In this document: one piece after another, positions 14,127-32,985 of the stretch
How positions within the stretch are numbered: position 1 is the first letter of the stretch
How the letters are laid out: each line of letters starts with the position of its first letter
NCBI GenBank assembly: GCA_009778325.1
Contig: WRJZ01000024.1
Coordinates: forward strand, 1 to 32,985
Source of the DNA: Candidatus Endomicrobium neocapritermitis
GTDB taxonomy: Bacteria > Elusimicrobiota > Endomicrobiia > Endomicrobiales > Endomicrobiaceae
DNA length: 32,985 bases
Direction of reading: 5' to 3'
The notes under the pieces: model-generated
The model's database searches: none
What the model was told of the DNA's origin: nothing
Seen by the model: only the letters and a program-made list of their open reading frames with translations
Made by a program: the position numbers and the translations under genes

Positions 14127-14564
14127 CTAAATATTAAAATCTAAAACTTTTTCTTTGCCGCCGTTCATTCGAAGTAATTGCTCTAATGTTATTCCTTTTA
14201 GGAAATTAAATAAAACTTCGGAGGCTTTTTCCCATACACCCCTGATTATGCATGATGAATTCTTCGGGCAGTATTTTTCATCTTCAATACATTCAATAAT
14301 ATATTTGTCTTCTTCAAGCGCGTACACTATATCGGCAAGATTTATGCGCGAAGGCTCCTTAGAAAGCGTAAATCCTCCGTTTTTGCCTCTAACGCTGTTA
14401 ACAAGCCCAGCGTCAACAAGAATAAGAAGAATATTCTGAAGATATCTTTCGGAAATATTTTGATTTTTGGCTATGACATTTACCGGCAAAACTTTTTTGC
14501 CGTAATTTCCGGCAAGTTCTATCATCGCCCTTGCGCCGTATCTCGATTTCGAAGACAGCCTCAT
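14127..14564 (-). CDS. Rrf2-family regulator, IscR/CymR-like
   Basis: The 145-residue DNA-binding protein has a winged helix-turn-helix at the N-terminus (RLSSKSRYGARAMIELA, then ISERYLQNIL) and the wing VRGKNGGFTLSK, all typical of Rrf2. Three cysteines, C92, C99 and C105, occupy nearly the positions of the [2Fe-2S] ligands of E. coli IscR (92, 98, 104); CymR-type cysteine regulators usually lack them. It may therefore sense Fe-S status or redox while controlling the adjacent cysteine synthase gene. It is followed directly by cysK and preceded by element A3 and metY. Target sites were not identified. Confidence 0.87.
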   Translation of the reverse strand: MRLSSKSRYGARAMIELAGNYGKKVLPVNVIAKNQNISERYLQNILLILVDAGLVNSVRGKNGGFTLSKEPSRINLADIVYALEEDKYIIECIEDEKYCPKNSSCIIRGVWEKASEVLFNFLKGITLEQLLRMNGGKEKVLDFNI

Positions 14565-14579
14565 ATTGATTCCTTTATC

Positions 14580-14680
14580 AGAAGCTCAGAAGCATGGAGG
14601 CGTAGATGCATAGAGCAGCTATGGTCGTTTTGTCTTCGCCGTTACTATGCATCTACGCCTCCATGCGTCTATGCATCATT
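14580..14680. repeat. family A element A3 (8-bp units, 22-bp perfect arms)
   Basis: Perfect 22-bp arms lie at 14592-14613 and 14645-14666. On the minus strand the arm splits into octads GATGCATA, GACGCATG, GAGGCGTA and GATGCATA in exact register. The loop reads GGTCGTTTTGTCTTCGCCG on the plus strand (from 14624), the family core. The element fills the whole gap between metY and the Rrf2 gene, so any Rrf2 promoter must overlap it, unless that gene is read through from metY. Confidence 0.88.
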
Positions 14681-15970: not shown

Positions 15971-15990
15971 TTTATAGCTCCTGTTATAAC

Positions 15991-16128
15991 GACAAAGTTT
16001 AGAGTTTAGAGTTCAGAGTTCAAATGCCGTGTTTCGCCAAAGGCGAAACGAATAACAGGTTTGCGCGGAACTTAGTTCCAGCGAAAACTCCAAATTTGAA
16101 CTCTGAGCTCTGAACTTTTAACTCTGTC
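15991..16128. repeat. family A element A4 (7-bp units GAGTTCA) with nested hairpins
   Basis: The left arm has GAGTTTA, GAGTTCA, GAGTTCA heptads; the right arm has their complements (GAACTCT, GAGCTCT, GAACTTT). Two smaller perfect palindromes lie inside: GTTTCGCC/GGCGAAAC (16031-16038, 16042-16049) and GGAACTTAGTTCC (16067-16079). It is homologous, in opposite orientation, to A6 at 17510. If the TATAAT at 16170 is used, A4 is transcribed into the 5' leader of metY mRNA. Confidence 0.82.
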
Positions 16129-16448
16129 TTTTTATATATGATATTATTTTTTTAATTTTACTGCAAAACATTATAGTTAATATCACATTCGGAAAAAATC
16201 CACATGTAAATAAATCATAATTTACCTGCCTTTGTTTTTTGAAATTGTTTTTGAAAAATTTGTTTTGAAACTTTGTTTCGAAACTTTGCTGCGGAATTTA
16301 GTTCCGAATTACATTCGTACTGCGGTAAATGAAAGACGCATGCATTCGCAATAAGCGAAAACATGTTTAAGGAATGTATTGATGATAGTGTTTTCTATTG
16401 AATGTTTCATTGTTGGAATATAATATAAAACTTCAGTTAAAATGTCAA
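16129..16448. other. 320-nt AT-rich gap with degenerate short repeats
   Basis: No gene is supported here. Positions 16230-16290 hold a degenerate tandem of TTTTGAAACTTTG-like units. GGAATTTAGTTCC at 16293-16305 echoes the palindrome inside A4, and TTCGC/GCGAA (16345-16359) is a small hairpin. The stretch looks like decayed repeat-element material between metY and the LDH-like gene. Confidence 0.5.
16170..16175 (-). promoter_or_regulatory. candidate -10 box for metY
   Basis: TATAAT on the minus strand in AACTATAATG. It is about 200 nt from the metY start, so it predicts a long leader containing A4. No -35 box is clear. Confidence 0.3.
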
Positions 16449-16539
16449 AACGGCAATTACGAATAAGTTGTAACCTGTAATTATTTTTTTGTTTTGTCTT
16501 TGATTTGTAATTCGTCATTCGTCATTCGTAATTGCCGTT
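16449..16539. repeat. family A element A5 (7-bp units ATTCGTA)
   Basis: AACGGCAATTACGAAT opens the element and TCATTCGTAATTGCCGTT closes it, with TTGTTTTGTCTTTG of the core between. Relative to A1 and A9 it is inverted and shortened, lacking the second core half. The right end touches the stop codon of the LDH-like gene (16539-16541). Confidence 0.83.
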
Positions 16540-17495
16540 TAAAATCCGCTTGCTTTTATAACTTCCCGGACTGTTTGCGCGGAGTTTTTAAACGCGGCCA
16601 GTTCAGCTGCGTCAAAATCAACTTCAAGAACCTGCCTTATTCCGGTTTTATGGACAACCGCCGGAACGCTCAAATATATATCGCTTATGCCGTGATAGTT
16701 TTCAAGCAATGAGGAAACCGGTAAAACCGAATTCTCATCTTTCAAAATTGATTTTGATATTTTGGTCAGCGAGAGGCCGATTCCGTAAGAAGTTTCGCCT
16801 TTTTTTTCTATAATTTCATAAGCGGAATCTCTTACGTCTTCGAAAATTTTATCGAGCTCTGCTTTCTGGTCTTGTCCGCACTTTTCTTTACAGACATTGC
16901 AAAAGTCTTTGAAAAACACGCCGCCTATCATTGCTTTGCTCCACATGGGAAATTCCGTATCGCCGTGTTCTCCCAAAATCAAAGCGTGTATGCTTCTGGA
17001 ATCAACATTGCAGTGCCTGCCTATAAGATAGCGGAATCTTGCCGTATCCAAAACCGTGCCTGAACCGATAACTTCATTGGCCGGTTTTCCTGAAATTTTA
17101 TACGTTATATAAGACAAAATATCCACGGGGTTTGTAGCAACCAGAATTATCGCTTTTGGCGAGTACTTCACAACCTGCGGAACTATGCTTTTTAATATTT
17201 CAGAATTGCCTTTAACCAAATCTATTCTTGTTTCGCCAGGCTTTTGTCCTCTTCCGGCTGTAATTACAACCAAATCTGAATCCGCGGTATCCGGATAATC
17301 TCCGGCGTAAATATTTACCGGAGAAACATAAGGCGCGCCGTGAGACAAATCCATGGCTTCGCCTTCCGCTTTCTTTTTGTTGTAATCCACAAGAACAAGC
17401 TCTCTTGTAACGCCTTTTATAATCATTGAATACGCGTAACGCATTCCCACGTTGCCGCAGCCTATTATTGAAACTTTCGGATGTAATCTTTTCAT
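16539..17495 (-). CDS. L-lactate dehydrogenase-like LDH/MDH-family enzyme
   Basis: The 318-residue cytosolic NAD-dependent dehydrogenase has the N-terminal Rossmann motif GCGNVG (12-17), D37 ending strand 2 (NAD rather than NADP), D150, R153 and the catalytic H177 in GEHGDTE. The substrate loop reads ITAGRGQKPGETR: Q84 is at the position equivalent to residue 102 of Bacillus LDH, where Gln selects pyruvate and Arg selects oxaloacetate; R90 is the conserved polarising arginine. I therefore favour lactate dehydrogenase. ATG at 17495 has AGGTGG five nt upstream; a GTG three codons earlier overlaps that Shine-Dalgarno and is unlikely. It is a tandem paralogue of the next gene upstream (17620-18570), separated by element A6. 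Confidence 0.85.
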   Translation of the reverse strand: MKRLHPKVSIIGCGNVGMRYAYSMIIKGVTRELVLVDYNKKKAEGEAMDLSHGAPYVSPVNIYAGDYPDTADSDLVVITAGRGQKPGETRIDLVKGNSEILKSIVPQVVKYSPKAIILVATNPVDILSYITYKISGKPANEVIGSGTVLDTARFRYLIGRHCNVDSRSIHALILGEHGDTEFPMWSKAMIGGVFFKDFCNVCKEKCGQDQKAELDKIFEDVRDSAYEIIEKKGETSYGIGLSLTKISKSILKDENSVLPVSSLLENYHGISDIYLSVPAVVHKTGIRQVLEVDFDAAELAAFKNSAQTVREVIKASGF

Positions 17496-17509
17496 ATTTA
17501 CCACCTTTT

Positions 17510-17619
17510 AACGGCAGAGTTCAAAGTTCAGATTTGGAGTTTTCGCGAAGCGAAAACCGATTATTAGTTTCGCCAGAGGCGAAACACGACATTTGAACTC
17601 TGCACTCTGAACTCTTCTT
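17510..17619. repeat. family A element A6 (7-bp units GAGTTCA) with nested hairpins
   Basis: The arms carry GAGTTCA-type heptads. The interior contains GTTTTCGC/GCGAAAAC (17539-17557) and GTTTCGCC/GGCGAAAC (17567-17585). It is a reversed copy of A4 that lacks the GGAACTTAGTTCC palindrome, so the loops of the two differ by small palindromic modules. It fills the gap between the LDH-like and MDH-like genes; its AACGGC end runs straight into the AAAAGGTGG ribosome-binding region of the LDH-like gene. Confidence 0.83.
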
Positions 17620-18570
17620 TTAAAAACCTATTTCCTTAATAACCTTTTTAACCTCGGCGGCAGAATGCCGGAAGGCTTTCATTTCTTCGTCATTAAATCT
17701 TACTTTCAAAACTTTTTCGATTCCTTTTTTGCCTACTATAGCAGGAACGCTCAGATACACGTCGCTTACGCCGTGATAATCCTCAAGAAGAACGGAAACA
17801 GGAAGAACCGACTTTTCATTTTTTAAAACAGCTTTTGATATTCTTGTCATTGAAAGACCTATTCCATAAGACGTTTCGCCTTTTCTTTTAATAATTTCTT
17901 TGCCTCTGTTCTTAACTTCCTGAAAAATGCGTTCAAGCTCGGCTTTGTAATCAACGTTGTGGTTAAAAGCTTTAAAAGCGTCTTCCAAAGGCACTCCGCC
18001 GACAGTAGCTTTACTCCAGACCGGAAAAGCCGTTTCGCCGTGCTCGCCTAAAACCTGAGCGTATATGCTTCTGAGATTCACGTCAAAAAGGCCTTTCAAA
18101 AGATTTACGAGCCTTGTGGTGTCAAGCAATGTGCCGGAACCGATAATTTCGCCGGAAGGTTTTCCTGAAATTTTATACGCGGCATAAGAAAGAATATCGA
18201 CAGGGTTTGAAACAACCAAAATAACGGCATTAGGAGAATACTTCAGAACTTTCGGAATTACTGATTTTATTATCTCAACGTTTCCTTTAACCAAATCCAT
18301 TCTCGACTGCCCGGGCTTTCTGCCTGAGCCGGCAGTTATAATGACAAGCTCGGAATTTGCCGTATCCTGATAATCCCCCGGATAAACGTCAACCGAAGAA
18401 AGAAGCGGACCGCCGTCTGCCAAATCCATGGCTTCGCCTTCCGCGATTTCCTTATGCAAATCCACTAAACAAAGTTCTCTTGCAAGCCCCTTTATTACCA
18501 TGGAATAAGCGTAACGCATTCCTACGTTGCCGCAGCCTACGATCGATACTTTCCTGGACAATGTCTCCAT
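17620..18570 (-). CDS. malate dehydrogenase-like LDH/MDH-family enzyme
   Basis: This 316-residue paralogue of the neighbouring gene aligns without gaps through the N-terminal half: GCGNVG (12-17), D37, R90 and catalytic His in GEHGETAFP. Its substrate loop is ITAGSGRKPGQSR, with R84 where the paralogue has Q84. Arg at this position is the classic malate dehydrogenase determinant, so oxaloacetate/malate is the likely substrate pair. The start is ATG at 18570, seven nt after GGGG; an upstream in-frame TTG at 18594 lies inside the end of repeat A7. gdhA is upstream on the same strand. The pair probably arose by tandem duplication followed by a specificity change. Confidence 0.83.
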   Translation of the reverse strand: METLSRKVSIVGCGNVGMRYAYSMVIKGLARELCLVDLHKEIAEGEAMDLADGGPLLSSVDVYPGDYQDTANSELVIITAGSGRKPGQSRMDLVKGNVEIIKSVIPKVLKYSPNAVILVVSNPVDILSYAAYKISGKPSGEIIGSGTLLDTTRLVNLLKGLFDVNLRSIYAQVLGEHGETAFPVWSKATVGGVPLEDAFKAFNHNVDYKAELERIFQEVKNRGKEIIKRKGETSYGIGLSMTRISKAVLKNEKSVLPVSVLLEDYHGVSDVYLSVPAIVGKKGIEKVLKVRFNDEEMKAFRHSAAEVKKVIKEIGF

Positions 18571-18586
18571 CTTAAAACCCCATTTT

Positions 18587-18704
18587 AACGGCAATTACGA
18601 ACAAAGGCGGAAGTTCAGCAGCTCGGCAGCTCAGAGAAGCTCTGGTCGCTTTATCTTTGCTTTTTGCCGTTGCCGAGCTGCTGAGCTTCCGAACTTCCGC
18701 CGTT
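18587..18704. repeat. family A element A7, chimeric 7-bp/8-bp type
   Basis: It opens with AACGGCAATTACGAA, the end of the heptad class, then switches to GGCGGAAGTTCAGCAGCTCG octads. The core GGTCGCTTTATCTTTG ... TTGCCGTTGCCGAG follows, with complementary octads ending GCCGTT at 18704. It is homologous to A10 (in reverse) apart from the foreign left end. It fills the gap between gdhA and the MDH-like gene. Confidence 0.85.
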
Positions 18705-18705
18705 T

Positions 18706-20100
<1,395 letters not shown>

Positions 20101-23806: not shown

Positions 23807-23950
23807 AAAGGCAATTACAAATTACGAATTACGAATCAAAGACAAAACAACAAAATAATTGTATATTACAATCTATTCGTAATTGTAGTAATTATCTTTG
23901 CCGTTCGCCGTTGATTTGTAATTCGTCATTCGTCATTCGTAATTGCCGTT
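23807..23950. repeat. family A element A9 (7-bp units AATTACG)
   Basis: A near full-length homologue of A1 in the same orientation: heptads AATTACA, AATTACG and AATTACG, then AATCAAAGACAAAACAAC, an AT-rich centre, CTTTGCCGTTCGCCGTTG, and heptads ATTCGTC/ATTCGTA ending GCCGTT. It begins directly at the dnaE stop codon and ends next to the AAAAAAGGGG Shine-Dalgarno of the next gene, so it fills the junction exactly. Confidence 0.87.
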
Positions 23951-24210: not shown

Positions 24211-24322
24211 AACGGCGGAAGTTCAGAAGTTCGGAAGCTCAGCAGCTCGGCAACAGCAAAAAACAAAGACAAAACGACCAGAGCTCCTCCGGGCTTCTGA
24301 GCTGCCGAGCTGCTGAGCTTCT
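24211..24322. repeat. family A element A10 (8-bp units GAAGTTCA/GAAGCTCA)
   Basis: AACGGC, then octads GAAGTTCA, GAAGTTCG, GAAGCTCA and GCAGCTCG, then GGCAAC, then the core AACAAAGACAAAACGACC (the complement of GGTCGTTTTGTCTTTG). Complementary octads run to 24322. It starts four nt after the previous stop and ends at the AAAAAGGGG ribosome-binding site of the next gene. Confidence 0.88.
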
Positions 24323-24337: not shown

Positions 24338-24832
24338 ATGAAAAACAAACTCAATTACATCATGAAAGCATCTGCCGTTACAATGGTATCGGCTTCCGTG
24401 TTTTTCATTATGCTTGCCTACATCAATGTTTGCGCGCAGGAATTTTTCGGGTATGAAGAATTTTTGAAGGTTGAATCAGAATCGGAACCTGCAATAGAGC
24501 AAGATGCCAATGATAAAGAATTGCGCGATTTGCGCAGACAGCTGGAAGATCTTGAATATTATAGGTCTGATCTGAAAGCTCAGGAGAGTGCGGCTCTCGC
24601 GGCTCTTCCGGCAAGCATGAAAACAAAGAAATTTCAAAATTCGGCTGAAAAGGCCGAATACTATAAAAAACTTTCAATAGAATATACAAATAAGCTTGCA
24701 AATGAGCAGCTTAGCAAAAGCGATATCAAAATATCGCAAAATCTCATAACTTTGGCGGAATTATACACAACTGAAGAATCCATAAAAACAGTAAAAAAAG
24801 AGATAGCAAAAAGAAGCAGTGTAAGAAGATAA
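24338..24832 (+). CDS. exported or membrane-anchored coiled-coil protein, unknown function
   Basis: Not recognised. In 164 residues there is a hydrophobic helix at about 11-30 ending INVCAQEF, which could be a signal peptide cleaved after VCAQ or CA, or an uncleaved anchor. An acidic stretch (ESESEPAIEQDAND) and two predicted coiled coils follow, at about 53-80 (ELRDLRRQLEDLEYYRSDLK) and 105-160. The single Cys lies in the hydrophobic segment and does not form a clear lipobox. GGGG precedes the ATG. It lies between elements A10 and A11. Confidence 0.65.
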   Translation: MKNKLNYIMKASAVTMVSASVFFIMLAYINVCAQEFFGYEEFLKVESESEPAIEQDANDKELRDLRRQLEDLEYYRSDLKAQESAALAALPASMKTKKFQNSAEKAEYYKKLSIEYTNKLANEQLSKSDIKISQNLITLAELYTTEESIKTVKKEIAKRSSVRR

Positions 24833-24923
24833 GAAGTTGGGATGCTGGGAAGCTGGGAGGAGCTGTAGTCGTTAAAGCCGTTGCCTTTGCTCAGCTTCTC
24901 AGCTTCCCAGCATCCCAACTTCT
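24832..24923. repeat. family A element A11 (8-bp units GAAGCTGG)
   Basis: Octads GAAGTTGG, GATGCTGG and GAAGCTGG with complementary octads on the right (to 24923) and a shortened core TAGTCGTTAAAGCCGTTGCC. The AACGGC ends are missing; the arms start on the last base of the preceding stop codon. The open frame running through its right half gives a spurious N-terminal extension to the next gene. Confidence 0.8.
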
Positions 24924-25225: not shown

Positions 25226-26302
25226 TCATTTTCTGTTTTTATTTTTCTGCTTTACTTCATTCTTAAGCTTTTTCATCTGCTCCTTGCTGCCGAACATGCT
25301 TTTAACTTTGGCATGTTCGATTTCTTTTGAACTTAAACCTTTGTAAGACAGCTCTTTGCGCAGTTTAAGATAATTTTCAAAACGTTTTTCCGAAACCGCG
25401 CCGTTTTTTATGGCTTGGCTAACAACGCATCCGGGCTCGGCTTTATGCGAACAGTTGCTGAACTTACACTGCAAAGCAAGCTTTTCAATGTCCGCAAAAG
25501 ATTTTGAGAAATCAGCCGCGTCAAGCTGCAGCTCTTTCATTCCCGGCGTATCTATCACAATTCCGCCTTCAGGCAAAAGCAGAAGCTGCCTGAAAGTGGT
25601 TGTATGCCTGCCTTTGCCGTCTTCACATATATCGGCAACGGCTAAAAGTTCTTTTCCAATCAATATATTTATAATCGTTGATTTTCCTACGCCCGATGAG
25701 CCTATAAAAGAAGCTGTTTTGCCTTTCGGGAGCAAATCTTTTATTTTTTGTATGCTGTTTTCGTCTTTTTTTGATGTTACAAGCACATTGCATCCGCCGC
25801 TTACGGCAAAAGTTTCCGAAAGTTTTAATTCAATGTCATCGCATAAATCGGATTTTGTAAGAATTACAACGGGCGTTCCTCCGCTTTCCCAGGCTATTGA
25901 AAGGTAGCGCTCCAAACGGCGGAGATTATAATCTTCATTTAACGCCATACATATAAATATGATATCCACATTAGAAGCAATAACCTGCGATTCAACGGCC
26001 GTACCCGCAGCTTTTCTGACAATCGCGGTTTTGCGCTGCAAAACATTATGTATTACGGCGTTTCCGCTTGTATTGGCGTCAATCATTACCCAGTCGCCGA
26101 CAACCGGATAAACGGTATTATCTTGCGCGTCAAACGAAAATTTGCCGGATACGGAGCCTATTATCATTCCGTTTCGCGTCATGATTTTGTAAAGGCTGCC
26201 GTGCTGCTGGCAAACTCTGGCAATTTCAAGCTCAGGGTAAGCCAGAGATTTGTTTATAAACTCTGCCGTAAGCCCGTATGATTCTAAATTTACCTGTTCC
26301 AT
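25226..26302 (-). CDS. rsgA: ribosome small-subunit-dependent GTPase RsgA
   Basis: This circularly permuted GTPase checks and matures the 30S subunit. With the ATG at 26302 it has 358 residues: an N-terminal OB-fold (about 30-100), G4 TKSD (149-152), G1 GSSGVGKST (201-209), G3 DTPG (251-254) in the permuted order, then a zinc-binding segment C279, C284, H286, C292 (CKFSNCSHKAEPGC) and a basic C-terminus. The frame is open 20 codons further (TTG at 26362), but a TATAAT at 26348-26353 lies inside that extension, so the internal ATG is preferred. The Shine-Dalgarno is weak (GGGA next to the ATG). It is transcribed convergently with the small membrane proteins. Confidence 0.93.
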   Translation of the reverse strand: MEQVNLESYGLTAEFINKSLAYPELEIARVCQQHGSLYKIMTRNGMIIGSVSGKFSFDAQDNTVYPVVGDWVMIDANTSGNAVIHNVLQRKTAIVRKAAGTAVESQVIASNVDIIFICMALNEDYNLRRLERYLSIAWESGGTPVVILTKSDLCDDIELKLSETFAVSGGCNVLVTSKKDENSIQKIKDLLPKGKTASFIGSSGVGKSTIINILIGKELLAVADICEDGKGRHTTTFRQLLLLPEGGIVIDTPGMKELQLDAADFSKSFADIEKLALQCKFSNCSHKAEPGCVVSQAIKNGAVSEKRFENYLKLRKELSYKGLSSKEIEHAKVKSMFGSKEQMKKLKNEVKQKNKNRK

Positions 26303-26347
26303 TCCCGAGATTTTAACAATTAATAAAAATGAAAACAATAAAATTTT

Positions 26348-26353
26348 ATTATA
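26348..26353 (-). promoter_or_regulatory. -10 box of rsgA
   Basis: Perfect TATAAT on the minus strand, about 46 nt from the chosen ATG. The upstream hexamer at 17 nt is only T-rich. Confidence 0.4.
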
Positions 26354-26414
26354 ATATTGCACTCCGAAATAAAAAAGATGTGATACTTTTTATGGTTGCG
26401 CATAGTATTGGTAG

Positions 26415-26527
26415 AAAGGCAGAGTGAAGAGTGGAGAGTGAAAAGTGAAGATAATGAGCGCTTCGCGCGGATATTCAGTGTCGTTGCCGTATCTTCACTC
26501 TCCACTTTTCACTCTTCACTCTGCAGT
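26415..26527. repeat. family A element A12 (7-bp units GAGTGAA)
   Basis: Heptads GAGTGAA, GAGTGGA, GAGTGAA and AAGTGAA in exact register; the right arm carries their complements (TTCACTC, TCCACTT, TTCACTC). The core is reduced to GTGTCGTTGCCGTATC, preceded by a small GAGCGCTTCGCGC hairpin. The left end is AAAGGC and the right end CTGCAGTT, followed by the AAAAAAGGAG Shine-Dalgarno of the next gene. Confidence 0.85.
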
Positions 26528-26544
26528 TAAAAAAGGAGATAAGA

Positions 26545-29500
26545 ATGAAAAAGAAACTTAGTTTCAAGATTCTAGCATGTTTAATTGCCGTTGTTATGTT
26601 TTCGGGGCCGGTTTTTGCCCAAAGCGGTTTTCAATCATTAAAAAGGGGCGGTTCTTCGCAAAACGATGAAATTGCTGTAATGCCAATGCCTATGCCAAGA
26701 CCTGTTCCGGTACCGCGCATAGTGGTTTCGCCGGATAGAAAACCCATAAATTTGCAGGATTTAAAAATTGACGTTGAAATTATCGGAAATCTCGCGATGA
26801 CTACTTATGAAATGGTTTTTCATAATCCGAACCAGATGGTTATGGAGGGCGAATTTGAGTTTCCTTTAACCGAAAACCAAAATGTTTCCGCCATAGCTTT
26901 GGATATTAACGGAAAAATGAGAGACGGCGTTGTTGTGGAAAAACAAAAAGCAAGGGAAGCTTTTGAAGCGATTGTCCGCCGCGGCGTTGATCCTGCTTTG
27001 GTAGAAAAAACTTCCGATAATCAGTTTAAAATGAGAATATATCCTTTTAGTCCCAACGGCACGCGCAGAATAAGAGTTACCATAGAAGAACCTCTTATAA
27101 CCAGAGACAATAACTATATTTATAATCTTCCTTTAAGGTTTAACCAGCAGGTTAACTTTGATTTAAACGTTGAAATCCCTGCAAATGCGGTTGCTTCAAT
27201 GCCAAAGACAGATACGGATCTGTCTAAATTCGCTTTCAGCAAAATTAATAATGTTTTTAAAGCTTCTTTTTCACAAAGAAATTATTTATTGGATAACCAG
27301 ATTTCTTTTACTCTGCCAAAGCTGAAAGAAGAGCCTGTTTTTATGCATAAGGACAATAATGAAACTTATTTTTATTCCGACATAAACATTCAGCCTTCTT
27401 CAAAAGATAAAACTCTTCCGAAAAGAATAGCGGTTGTCTGGGATACTTCGCTTTCTTCTTCAAAGCGTAACCTTGCCGCAGAAATCGCACTGCTGGACGC
27501 TTATTTTAAAAATTTTTCCAACGTCGATGTGGCATTCGCCACATTTAATATAAAGACCGACATAAACAAGAGCTTTACTGTTAAGAACGGCAACTGGGAC
27601 GCTCTTAGAAAAGAGATCGAAGAACTCATTTATGACGGAGCCACGCGTTTTGATAAGCTAAATCTCAACAGTTTAAAAGTTGATGAAATATTATTGTTTA
27701 CAGACGGCGTCAGCACTTTCGGAAACACGCAGATAGAAGAAAGCAACACGCCGGTATTTGTAATCACATCCTCTCCGGAGTTTAACCGCGGAGGACTTAT
27801 GAATGCAGCGGTTAAAAGCGGGGGAAGTTTTATAAACCTTAACGCCGTCACCGCAAAAGAAGCGTTAACGCTTTTAACAAAACAGAATCTTAAACTTATC
27901 GCTTACGAATTCGATAAAAATAAATTCAGGGATATTTATCCCAAACCCGGCGTTGACGTAGGCGAAAACTTTACTTTTGCCGGTATTTTGACCGCGCAAA
28001 GCGGCGAGATAACTTTGTCTTTCGGCTATAATAAAAAAGAGATAGTTCAAACAAAAAAAATAAATATTAAAGCTGAAGGCGACAATCCCGCCGTGGCAAG
28101 GCTTTGGGCAGTACAAAAAATAAAAGATTTGGAAATGGATTCGGAAAAAAATGAAAAAGAGATTTCAAAGCTCGGGCAGGAATATTCCGTTGTTACGGAA
28201 TTCACTTCGCTTCTTGTGCTTGAATTTGTGCAGGATTATGTGACATATAAAATAACGCCTCCGCAGGAACTTTTGGCCGAATACAACAGAATAACGGCTA
28301 ATGCCAGAAAAGGCGAAGAGCAGACAGAAAAATCAGCTCTTGATGACGCGATATCGCAGGCAAGAGAGATAAAAGAGTGGTGGAAAAGAGAGTTTGACCA
28401 AAGCAAACCGCCGAAATCTTTTGAAAAACTTAAAGGCGGCGGCGAAGTAAACCGCCTGCAGGAATCGAATGCAGCAATGGATGCCGCGCCTATGCCGTCA
28501 GTACGGCAGGAAGCATCTGTTTCAAGAGACCGCGATGCAGCGCCCAGAAGAGCTAATGCAGCTTCAAAAGTCGCAAGAAGCCGCGCAGCTTCCGCTGACT
28601 TTGCAATGGCGGATATGGCTGTTGCCGAATCGGATAAAGCGGAAGTATCAAGAGCATCAGAGCAAAAATCAGCGGCGACTATACAAATAAAAGCATGGGA
28701 TCCGCAGACTCCGTACATGAAAATATTGAAAAAATCAAATGATCAGGAAATATACAGAGATTATTTAAAGCTTAAATCCGGATATGATGACCAGCCTTCG
28801 TTCTTTTTTGATGTTACTGACGAATTTATCCACCGCAAAATGAACGATAAAGCAGTTGTAATACTTTCCAATATAGCCGAGATGAAGCTTGATAATGCGG
28901 AACTTCTGCGCACTGTCGCCAATAAACTTATGGAGCTCGGCGAATATCAGTATGCGGTTGATATGTTTGAAAAAATAGTAAAACTCAGAGGCGAGCATCC
29001 CCAGTCGTACAGGGATTTGGCTTTGGCCTATCAGGCAAACAAAGAGTATCAGAAATCTTTAGACACTTTTTACATAGTTATGACGCGCACATGGAGCAGG
29101 TTTAACAGCATTAAACAGATAGTTTTTGTGGAAATGAACAATTTGATAGCTTTAAGCCCGAAACTTGATACTTCAAAAATTAATAAAGAGCTGATATTCG
29201 CAATGCCTGTTGACATAAGAGTTGTGCTGGGGTGGAGCACTGATAATACCGATATAGACCTTCATGTAAAAGATCCGTACGGCGAAACGGCTTATTACGG
29301 CAACAGACTGACAAGAATCGGCGGAAGGGTTTCGCAGGATATTACGGACGGTTTTGGCCCTGAAGAGTTTATGCTTAGAAAAGCGGTAAACGGCGATTAT
29401 GAAATATTCACAAATAATTTCGGAGACAGAAGGCAAAGTATTTCCGGCCCCACGGTTTTGTATTTGGACATTTTTACGTTCTACGGAACTAAAAAACAGA

Positions 29501-29574
29501 CACATCAGCGCATTCTTGTAAGAACCGAAAACGTGAAAGAAAACAATATAATAGGAACGGTAAATTTTAAGTAA
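26545..29574 (+). CDS. secreted VIT-VWA-TPR-DUF2135 protein
   Basis: The 1009-residue exported protein has a signal peptide at 1-25 (VFAQ). A Met/Pro-rich linker (about 46-60) follows. A VIT domain spans about 65-185 (MVMEGEFEFPL, QKAREAFEAIVRRG, FKMRIYPFSP). A VWA-like domain starts near 293 with a MIDAS DxSxS at D300, S302, S304 (WDTSLSSS). Then come a charged helical part, an Ala/Ser/Arg-rich low-complexity stretch (about 650-710), TPR-like helices (about 770-850) and a C-terminal YfaP-like DUF2135 domain (about 895-1005, WSTDNTDIDLHVKDPYG). VIT plus VWA mediates metal-dependent protein contacts. The specific role is unknown; envelope assembly or surface interaction is plausible. A good AGGAG precedes the ATG. 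Confidence 0.85.
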   Translation: MKKKLSFKILACLIAVVMFSGPVFAQSGFQSLKRGGSSQNDEIAVMPMPMPRPVPVPRIVVSPDRKPINLQDLKIDVEIIGNLAMTTYEMVFHNPNQMVMEGEFEFPLTENQNVSAIALDINGKMRDGVVVEKQKAREAFEAIVRRGVDPALVEKTSDNQFKMRIYPFSPNGTRRIRVTIEEPLITRDNNYIYNLPLRFNQQVNFDLNVEIPANAVASMPKTDTDLSKFAFSKINNVFKASFSQRNYLLDNQISFTLPKLKEEPVFMHKDNNETYFYSDINIQPSSKDKTLPKRIAVVWDTSLSSSKRNLAAEIALLDAYFKNFSNVDVAFATFNIKTDINKSFTVKNGNWDALRKEIEELIYDGATRFDKLNLNSLKVDEILLFTDGVSTFGNTQIEESNTPVFVITSSPEFNRGGLMNAAVKSGGSFINLNAVTAKEALTLLTKQNLKLIAYEFDKNKFRDIYPKPGVDVGENFTFAGILTAQSGEITLSFGYNKKEIVQTKKINIKAEGDNPAVARLWAVQKIKDLEMDSEKNEKEISKLGQEYSVVTEFTSLLVLEFVQDYVTYKITPPQELLAEYNRITANARKGEEQTEKSALDDAISQAREIKEWWKREFDQSKPPKSFEKLKGGGEVNRLQESNAAMDAAPMPSVRQEASVSRDRDAAPRRANAASKVARSRAASADFAMADMAVAESDKAEVSRASEQKSAATIQIKAWDPQTPYMKILKKSNDQEIYRDYLKLKSGYDDQPSFFFDVTDEFIHRKMNDKAVVILSNIAEMKLDNAELLRTVANKLMELGEYQYAVDMFEKIVKLRGEHPQSYRDLALAYQANKEYQKSLDTFYIVMTRTWSRFNSIKQIVFVEMNNLIALSPKLDTSKINKELIFAMPVDIRVVLGWSTDNTDIDLHVKDPYGETAYYGNRLTRIGGRVSQDITDGFGPEEFMLRKAVNGDYEIFTNNFGDRRQSISGPTVLYLDIFTFYGTKKQTHQRILVRTENVKENNIIGTVNFK

Positions 29575-31376: not shown

Positions 31377-31466
31377 GTCATTGCGAGGAAGGACAAAGTC
31401 CTGACGCGGCAATCCAGTGTCGTAAATCTCTAGATTGCTTCAGAGGCTTCGCCCCCTCGCAATGAC
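31377..31466. repeat. family B hairpin element B2
   Basis: Outer arms GTCATTGCGAGG (31377-31388) and CCTCGCAATGAC (31455-31466) enclose smaller stems such as GGAC/GTCC. On the minus strand the flank beyond the arm, up to about 31491, reads GGGTGTCTCGAAAGAACC then TTTGTCATTGCG, matching GGGTTGCTTGAAAAACCC then TTTGTCATTGCG of B1. The flank forms the 3' end of the neighbouring membrane-protein gene. Confidence 0.8.
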
Positions 31467-31470
31467 AAAA

Positions 31471-32853
31471 TCATGGTTCTTTCGAGACACCCAATTCGTC
31501 ATTCGTAATTGCCTTTTTTTCGCCGTGCAAAAGCTCTCTTACAACTTTAGTTTTTTCTTTTATTTTTCGGTCTGTCAAATCGTAAGCAAGGTCGTATCCG
31601 TATTTATTCTTCTCCAAAGCTTCTTCGGCTTGTTTGAGGTATGTAAGTTTCAGAATCAAATCGTCTTCCATGTCGGTTTTCAAAAACCAGCCATACACTT
31701 CCGCAAGCCCTTCATTGCCAAGCATTGCCGCCGTAATTTTATCAGGGTTTACCCACATATACTTTCTCACATAACTGTTTACCGCTGAAAAAACAAAAAA
31801 TAAACCTAAAACCAAAACCGCAATCCACTTTTTTTTGCCGCCCAAATAAGGGAACGCGTATATCTCAAGAAAAGCGAAAAGCGCGAAGAAAACGCCTATA
31901 GAACCCATATACATATAACGCAGGCTCATCACTTCTGTTTTATCTATCAGAATAAGTCCCGGCAGCAGAAATATAATAAAAAACGCGGGCGCTAAAATGA
32001 AAATTCTGTTTTTTCTGTACGCAAAAAAGCATACTGCCGCATATGACGCCAAAACGCCGAACTGCCATAAGTAGCGCAGCGGATCCTGCATGAACGGCGG
32101 CAAAGGCAGCGAATAAATAATGTCAAAAAACGGCGGAACAAAACAATAAACTATATAGTAAGCCATCAAAGAAGGTATCTTGTACAAAGAAGCCCAGCCA
32201 AACAGATTCAGTGAAAAAAACAGGCCGCTGTCAACAGACCGAAGAACGTATAAATTTACAGCTGCCGCAATAAAAACGATTACTGCGAAAGGAAGCATTT
32301 TAAAAAAAACTTTTTTCACGGGCTGCCTGTTATTTTTCGCAAATTCATAAACAGCCAGTAATACCGGCAAAACTATTAATGTCGGCCAAAAGAAAACCCC
32401 GATAAAAAATAAAAAAGCGGCCAAAGCTATAAAATGTTTGTCCTGATTATGTTTCAGACCGGAAGAGTCAGCCAGCATATAAAATAAAAAAGAAGACAAA
32501 GCAAAAAAACCGGTAAAAAGATGCCCCCTTGCGGCTATTTCGTTTACGGCATTGCTGCCTACAGGGGCGACAGCAAAGAATAATGCCGTTAAAAAAGCCG
32601 CGCGGTAAGATTTTGAAAGCATTAAAATTACCATATAGCACAATAAAACATTAAAAACGTGAATTATATCGCTGAAAAGATGAGATACATGCGGGTTGAA
32701 AGGCTCAGCCAAGTTAAGAAAATAATTAACTGAATATTCATTGTTTACTGCTAAGGCATAATCGTTTTTATAATTTCCGAAATACACCGCTGCCGTAATT
32801 ACGGCAAGAATTAAAAAATGGAAAATAATTTTGTTGTTTTTAAAAAAGTTCAT
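31471..32853 (-). CDS. polytopic membrane protein, GT-C glycosyltransferase-like (TMTC/PMT type)
   Basis: The 460-residue inner-membrane protein has about ten hydrophobic helices and a short soluble C-terminus. An early loop (GNYKNDYALAVNN, about residues 26-38) and FFAVAPVGSNAVNEIAARGHLFTGFFAL near residue 95 resemble the DD loop and the HPVxxEAVxWI-x-RxxLL segment of TMTC/DUF1736-type and related GT-C transferases, which use lipid-linked sugars. The usual acidic pair is N-D here. The role is thus a possible protein or lipid glycosyl transfer, moderately supported. AAAGGA precedes the ATG. The last 13 residues (AITNDEL then GVSKEP) are encoded by repeat sequence, so the native C-terminus has been replaced. 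Confidence 0.65.
   Translation of the reverse strand: MNFFKNNKIIFHFLILAVITAAVYFGNYKNDYALAVNNEYSVNYFLNLAEPFNPHVSHLFSDIIHVFNVLLCYMVILMLSKSYRAAFLTALFFAVAPVGSNAVNEIAARGHLFTGFFALSSFLFYMLADSSGLKHNQDKHFIALAAFLFFIGVFFWPTLIVLPVLLAVYEFAKNNRQPVKKVFFKMLPFAVIVFIAAAVNLYVLRSVDSGLFFSLNLFGWASLYKIPSLMAYYIVYCFVPPFFDIIYSLPLPPFMQDPLRYLWQFGVLASYAAVCFFAYRKNRIFILAPAFFIIFLLPGLILIDKTEVMSLRYMYMGSIGVFFALFAFLEIYAFPYLGGKKKWIAVLVLGLFFVFSAVNSYVRKYMWVNPDKITAAMLGNEGLAEVYGWFLKTDMEDDLILKLTYLKQAEEALEKNKYGYDLAYDLTDRKIKEKTKVVRELLHGEKKAITNDELGVSKEP
31491..31513. repeat. family A fragment A13 inside the 3' end of the membrane-protein gene
   Basis: Read on the minus strand, GGCAATTACGAATGACGAAT is the end of an A1/A5/A9-type element. 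It is in frame with the membrane-protein gene and encodes AITNDEL. It directly adjoins the flank of B2, so two repeat families meet at this point. Confidence 0.75.
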
Positions 32854-32865
32854 TTAAAATCCTTT

Positions 32866-32985
32866 AACGGCAGATGATTGGAAGTTCAGCAGCTCGGAAG
32901 CTCGGCAACGACAAAAACAGCGGCAATCCATTACCTTCTGTTAACTGCGTTCACAGTCCGTTCTTGTCTTTGCCGTTGCCGAGCT
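32866..32985. repeat. family A element A14 (8-bp units), truncated by window end
   Basis: AACGGC, octads GATGATTG, GAAGTTCA, GCAGCTCG and GAAGCTCG, then GGCAACGACAAAAAC. The core half TTCTTGTCTTTGCCGTTGCCGAGCT lies at the edge, so the right arm is just beginning. The interior is longer than in A10. The AACGGC end lies directly upstream of the ribosome-binding site of the membrane-protein gene. Confidence 0.78.

Follow-up and report, generated by a model that had tools for sequence, protein, structure and literature searches.

Hairpins with facing heptad and octad arms in Candidatus Endomicrobium neocapritermitis: probable copies of a dispersed, non-autonomous mobile repeat

The hairpin at 26415–26527 and similar elements in the window

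A gene for a VIT/DUF2135 domain protein (26545–29574, plus strand) carries in its 5′ untranslated stretch a hairpin at 26415–26527 of the window, i.e., of the whole 32,985-nucleotide stretch of DNA analyzed here, which belongs to the 2.38-Mb genome of Candidatus Endomicrobium neocapritermitis (G000). The 35-nt arms (26419–26453 and 26490–26524) are 89% complementary and enclose a 36-nt loop; as RNA, the hairpin folds with −59.2 kcal/mol (z = −9.5 relative to dinucleotide-shuffled sequences). Read on the plus strand, the left, purine-rich 5′ arm comprises about four GAGTGAA-type heptads (GAGTGAA GAGTGGA GAGTGAA AAGTGAA GATA), and the right, pyrimidine-rich 3′ arm about four inverted heptads, ending approximately 20 nt 5′ of the start codon of the gene. 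Each arm is periodic at 7 nt, with a self-match of 0.75 (p = 0.0015 and 0.002, maximum over lags 3–12). Mismatches are found at four of 34 arm positions and are all transitions, the variant units being placed differently in each arm. The loop, or core, at 26454–26489 (ATGAGCGCTTCGCGCGGATATTCAGTGTCGTTGCCG) is common to other GAGTGAA elements of the same genome (e.g., L018:9110 and L011:4205), with DNA matches extending over the whole element. At the orthologous locus, the relative G002 has no hairpin, and G001 has a hairpin of the AGATAAT/AGAATAG type. An intrinsic terminator was ruled out, since no GC-rich stem followed by a U-tract is present in 26300–26600, and nowhere in the window did an Rfam match exceed the gathering score.

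Elements of similar build recur along the window. AATTACG-type heptad elements lie at 2364–2499 and 16448–16540, and a further AATTACG-type element at 23807–23950, directly 3′ of the dnaE stop codon. A GAGTTTA/GAGTTCA-type heptad element with an inner-hairpin core occupies 15985–16134, and a GAGTTCA-type heptad element with a two-hairpin (T) core, the first row of alignment A1, occupies 17507–17624. Octad elements are found ahead of the minus-strand gene 14127–14564, upstream of its start codon (14581–14677, GATGCATA/GAAGCTCA type), at 18600–18707 (GAAGTTCA/GCAGCTCG; the same junction holds a different octad element in G003 and none in G002 and G004), just 5′ of the start codon at 24338 (24218–24321), at the stop codon of gene 24338–24832 (24832–24923, GAAGCTGG), and at 32880–32985 (GGAAGCTC, cut off by the window end). 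As originally predicted, the arms are periodic: the 11 arm sets analyzed across the window all have their maximum at 7 or 8; in ten sets one or both arms reach p ≤ 0.007, and the element at 2364 has p of about 0.01. A palindromic repeat, GTCATTGCGAG...GCAATCCAG, occurs alone or in the loops of heptad elements (window 31390–31475; L014:832–959; L012:16951–17061).

Unit arrays, polarity, and core register

The discreteness of the periods is a sound observation, as it follows from 73 hairpins picked by complementarity alone in 410 kb of the same genome: 44 have a significant period of 7 or 14, eight have a period of 8, 21 lack a significant period, and none has any other. The sharp peaks at 7 or 8 that had been predicted were thus obtained. 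The accompanying expectation of no intermediate classes is borne out in Endomicrobia but not at Bacteroidales loci, where the arms of a few hairpins have periods of 4, 9, 10, or 11. Periods of 9, 10, or 11 were observed at L254:11606, L166:2682, L156:3812, and L121:2611. The original prediction also ascribed the two period classes to two variants of the generating process; the classes are indeed discrete, but judging from the unit lists, octads and heptads look like related units rather than products of two processes (e.g., octad GAAGTTCA resembles heptad GAGTTCA with one additional base).

The elements can be grouped into a small number of unit families and of loop types. Heptad families in the G000 sample are GAGTGAA, GAGTTCA/GAGTTTA, AATTACG, AATTAAC, AGTTAGT, AATGGTT, and AGATAAT; the octad families are GAAGCTGG, GAAGCTCG, and GAAGTTTG. 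Arms contain three to six units, in good agreement with the predicted three to five. In GAGTGAA elements from many phyla, the left arm has four units in 71 of 105 cases and the right arm in 75 of 105, the loci outside Endomicrobia having been fetched with one unit sequence; this four-unit mode departs from the broad spread expected of a slippage-driven simple sequence repeat. Equal unit numbers in the left and right arms show no excess over permutation.

Polarity is nearly invariant. The 5′ arm is the purine-rich one in all 109 elements from three genomes, and in nine genomes the GAGTGNA unit yields 94 inward-facing matches (overlapping matches inside one element counted separately) against a single outward-facing one; judged by its sequence, the latter resembles two adjacent elements. 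In the T-elements (n = 23 in the sample), the loop consists of two small hairpins with CTATTAATAG as the linker. Near-identical T cores (84–91%) bear different arm units, and since the unit type is always switched on both arms, a homogenizing process is needed; one candidate route is slippage combined with hairpin-templated copying. When aligned, the 23 T-elements share 37 conserved pairs, and in 31 of these both partners have changed. At four columns, with a spacing of 7, an A-U pair is kept in 22–23 of the 23 sequences. Units of the T-core sub-family follow the code A-R-W-K-W-D-N, in register with the two-hairpin core: A at position 1 (91/92), a purine at 2 (105/105), A/T at 3 (104/107), G/T at 4 (82/84), A/T at 5 (82/86), any base except C at 6 (92/92), and any base at 7. 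The first-position A and the second-position purine are likewise kept in another 25 Endomicrobia elements and in 12 from Clostridia; the underlying alignment was fitted to the model and is thus biased towards agreement, although gap-free arms allow little freedom. The register between units and core stays fixed across families, while the AATTACG and octad families fit the T-family code inexactly.

Loops may carry a CCCTCACC-type repeat, the GTCATTGCGAG...GCAATCCAG repeat, or an intrinsic terminator. The loops of AATTACG, GAGTGAG, and further heptad or octad elements enclose a CCCTCACCC...GAGGGAA repeat (L015:8516, L020:13896, L062:16444, and L092:4760), and heptad or octad arms bracket the apparent intrinsic terminator of a neighboring gene at L092:6040–6350 (G003), L020:18248, and L028:18301. 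A longer inverted repeat with GGGTGTG..ACACACCC ends and a large inner hairpin is found in G000 (L011:11165–11438, L013:870–1140, and L062:15766–15927), and a short version with similar arms in G001 (L031:11132).

The prediction that the opposite arm carries compensating changes did not hold. Compensation is found between families only, in that both arms have the same unit type; within unit families, the two arms of an element are no closer to each other than to the arms of other elements (own-arm versus between-element identity of 0.952 versus 0.937 for AATTACG, 0.881 versus 0.849 for GAGTGAA, 0.887 versus 0.887 for AATTAA, and 0.861 versus 0.897 for GAGTGAA in G003), and the four transition mismatches at 26415–26527 are in line with this. 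The mixed octad class does have own-arm identity in excess of between-element identity, because it pools several unit types. Sharing of rare unit variants by both arms within one genome is not significant (p = 0.12).

A local origin of each hairpin, with a unit expanding in place by replication slippage and the strand folding back to copy itself into the opposite arm, is therefore unlikely, although it would account for arms of period 7 or 8 and for a unit type that is always equal in both arms on cores common to several unit types. Some Bacteroidales elements also have an identical rare unit in both arms, offset by one unit, and heptanucleotides are cited in PMC4679880 and PMC4692102, from Mrazek 2007, as the most abundant long simple repeats of many bacteria. 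The heptanucleotide repeats described there share with the present elements the prevalent 7-nt unit but are simple arrays attributed to polymerase slippage, whereas here the arrays are paired, facing, of about four units each, and arranged around a core. The slippage-and-foldback mechanism of the original prediction is contradicted by the few dispersed families, the unit number of about four, the 94:1 polarity, the fixed core register, and the lack of any arm matching beyond the family; moreover, cores are common to unrelated loci, and the GAGTGAA unit recurs with the same layout in distant phyla.

Placement between genes and distribution among genomes

Approximately 70 elements of facing 7- or 8-base units were found in 462 kb of G000, sampled in stretches on contigs with hits, so that the genome would contain roughly 350 by extrapolation. 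Among 61 of these elements, 45 lie between co-directional genes, and the elements occur 5′ of, 3′ of, and between genes in every orientation. The median distance is 3 nt to the flanking stop codon and 22 nt to the flanking start codon, with ORFs called heuristically by a simple script. In other phyla, the elements lie a median of 7.5 nt from the stop codon, and the values −6, −13, and −20 recur, which suggests that successive units supply stop codons.

Orthologous junctions differ among relatives. The 3′ end of dnaE is followed by the AATTACG element in G000, by an AATTAGT-type element in G002, and by none in G001. An octad element of about 99 nt in G191 parts two genes that overlap by 10–12 nt in G189 and G014, and provides the stop codon of the upstream gene. 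A 120-nt junction with a T-element in G191 corresponds to 30–54 nt in three relatives, some of which have possible arm remnants, and another junction is occupied by a heptad T-element in G191 and by an octad one in G186. The relatives are separate species, 75–87% identical, with near-empty sites too diverged to define exact ends or a target-site duplication; in Prevotella, the relatives compared were too distant to yield clean empty sites. On the sequences compared, such differences are what insertion, decay, and replacement would leave, while the high co-occupancy of junctions could alternatively mean remodeling in place.

The hairpins might also be host RNA elements, i.e., gene-end structures such as 3′ stabilizers and intercistronic or 5′-UTR hairpins that are under selection for their fold and have repeat arms only incidentally. 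The very stable fold, the compensatory change between families, and the placement against stop and start codons are consistent with this possibility. It is nevertheless quite unlikely, given that the elements take all positions and orientations relative to genes, are not conserved at orthologous junctions between species, and are patchy among relatives; the hairpin at 26415–26527 is not a U-tract terminator, and folding alone requires neither a strong polarity nor a sequence code.

A pattern scan detected two facing GAGTGAA double units in at least 117 stretches of named genomes, a cross-phylum set that was partly fetched by the unit sequence itself. The matches listed are mostly from Prevotella and its relatives, then from Clostridia, Endomicrobia, Acidobacteriota, Verrucomicrobia, Chloroflexi, Armatimonadetes, Planctomycetes, Campylobacteraceae, and Lysobacter. 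Some of these genomes come from cultured isolates; therefore, the elements are not merely assembly products. In Clostridia, the elements share the T layout but differ in their inner hairpins; a covariance model built from G000 alone detects them with E of about 1e-13, a rough value for loci partly picked by their arms. Within 288 kb from element-poor relatives, the sole match of this model below E = 0.01 was a true element, in G002. Copy numbers vary widely across the order: at least 59 each in G000, G186, and G191, 54 in G020, 33 in G189, and zero in most genomes. Carriage by phages was rejected, as 2.9 million viral contigs gave a single match, and none with the opposite polarity.

Possible mobilization and relation to known repeats

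The hairpin at 26415–26527 is probably a copy of a dispersed mobile repeat, itself probably non-autonomous, in which a core, often made of two small hairpins, is flanked by two facing arrays, each with about four units of 7 or 8 bp. Its copies are numerous and dispersed, face inward almost exclusively, have a narrow unit number, obey a unit code that keeps register with their core, and sit at gene ends; at orthologous junctions they are present or absent or exchange families, and their taxonomic spread is wide and patchy. A putative trans-acting factor would recognize either the arrays in their facing arrangement or the single strand once folded, and spread the copies. These may insert where the gap between a stop codon and a ribosome-binding site tolerates them, and could add a new stop codon, while slippage, gene conversion, or exchange between elements might carry new unit types through all copies and both arms. 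A dispersed element with recognition units is favored because polarity, unit number, core register, and base classes fit a putative binding partner, and none of these four is predicted by slippage.

The closest published case is that of the GGGAATC repeats of Xanthomonas, with a 7-nt unit, mostly four units per array, and 70–75 convergent pairs per genome (Rehm et al. 2015, PMC4692102). These repeats are intergenic and nearer to the upstream ORF, and their families turn over between species. The present elements likewise have inward-facing arrays with about four units of 7 nt; however, their heptad units (GAGTGAA, AATTAAC, GAGTTCA, and others) lack G-tracts, and a two-hairpin core with a unit code was not found in the accessible sections of PMC4692102. 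There, the authors tie the number of four to G-quadruplexes. GAGTGAA arrays also number four without G-tracts, which argues against quadruplexes as a general explanation of the four-unit rule. In the family to which G096 (the genome with Lysobacter locus L172) belongs, inward-facing GGGAATC pairs were likewise detected, in 5 of 79 genomes.

The TAACTGA repeats of Beggiatoaceae, Cyanobacteria, and Bacteroidetes are intergenic heptamer arrays by start codons, with 169 direct sets and one indirect set (MacGregor 2015, PMC4679880). They resemble the present elements as intergenic heptamers beside start codons in scattered phyla, but are almost always direct arrays. On the opposite strand, TAACTGA reads AGTTATC and fits the unit code A-R-W-K-W-D-N, which is a resemblance only. 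Terminal inverted repeats, as in MITEs, are present here in the form of the arms. Eukaryotic fold-back (FB) transposons have long inverted repeats composed of short tandem repeats. They are alike in their inverted arms of short tandem repeats, yet far longer and eukaryotic, so that the resemblance is one of build. No relevant paper was found by searching the literature for the unit strings, and no discussion of heptad or octad repeats was found in the accessible part of the Endomicrobia genome paper PMC11257099.

It is conceivable, albeit doubtful, that the heptad and octad elements belong to one phylum-spanning class of mobile DNA, recognized by array period, polarity, and per-position base class rather than by a fixed terminal sequence. 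The Xanthomonas, Beggiatoaceae, and cyanobacterial heptamers would then be members, and new unit types would arise continually while the architecture stays. If true, scattered reports of bacterial heptamer repeats would be united into a single class with a defined build. The elements lengthen hundreds of intergenic gaps by about 100 nt each and so shape operon spacing and gene ends in common gut bacteria.

REP, REPIN, and BIME sequences are dispersed extragenic palindromes, occurring as inverted doublets less than 20 bp from the 3′ ends of ORFs, where they possibly supply stop codons and may form large hairpins (PMC3733652, PMC3116915). The present elements share the inverted doublet able to form one long hairpin and the extragenic position near ORF 3′ ends. 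The 20–40-bp palindrome with a GTAG/CGTC tag is absent from the elements of alignment A1, and instead of a constant palindrome the arms are unit arrays that vary freely save at the restricted unit positions. From the shared position and doublet, the absent tag, and the direct arrangement of the TAACTGA arrays, we conclude that they are REPIN-like repetitive extragenic elements and not members of the REPIN or MITE groups.

Among the five same-genus genomes examined, Y1 transposase genes (PF01797, Y1_Tnp) are present in G000 and G001, and none was found in G002, G004, or G003. That the elements are true REPINs mobilized by these RAYT-type transposases is very unlikely: the inverted-dimer build with two small hairpins, the REP-like placement beside stop codons (cf. 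PMC3733652), and the lack of Y1 matches in G002 and G004, both with few or no elements, speak for it, but the Y1 genes are bordered by their own, different CGTC-type hairpins (GTCAAGGGGACG.AG..GTTGAC) and not by the heptad repeat, the heptad elements lack a GTAG/CGTC tag beside a constant palindrome, and heptad elements are numerous in G003 (70% complete), where no Y1 match was found. The RAYT (Y1) candidate was rejected on account of these different ends. An origin based on reverse transcription (retron, DGR, or group II intron) was rejected as well, since G000–G004 encode no RVT_1 genes. Checks for RVT_1 and PF01797 in G000–G004 thus identified no mobilizing gene for the heptad and octad elements; what moves them is a testable question, because the polarity, the unit code, and a covariance model are available for searches.

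At the Y1_Tnp loci themselves (L062, L063, and L064 in G000; L065 and L066 in G001), four of five have an adjoining CGTC-type hairpin or a close variant. These hairpins resemble a REP class described as lacking a dedicated transposase (PMC3733652).
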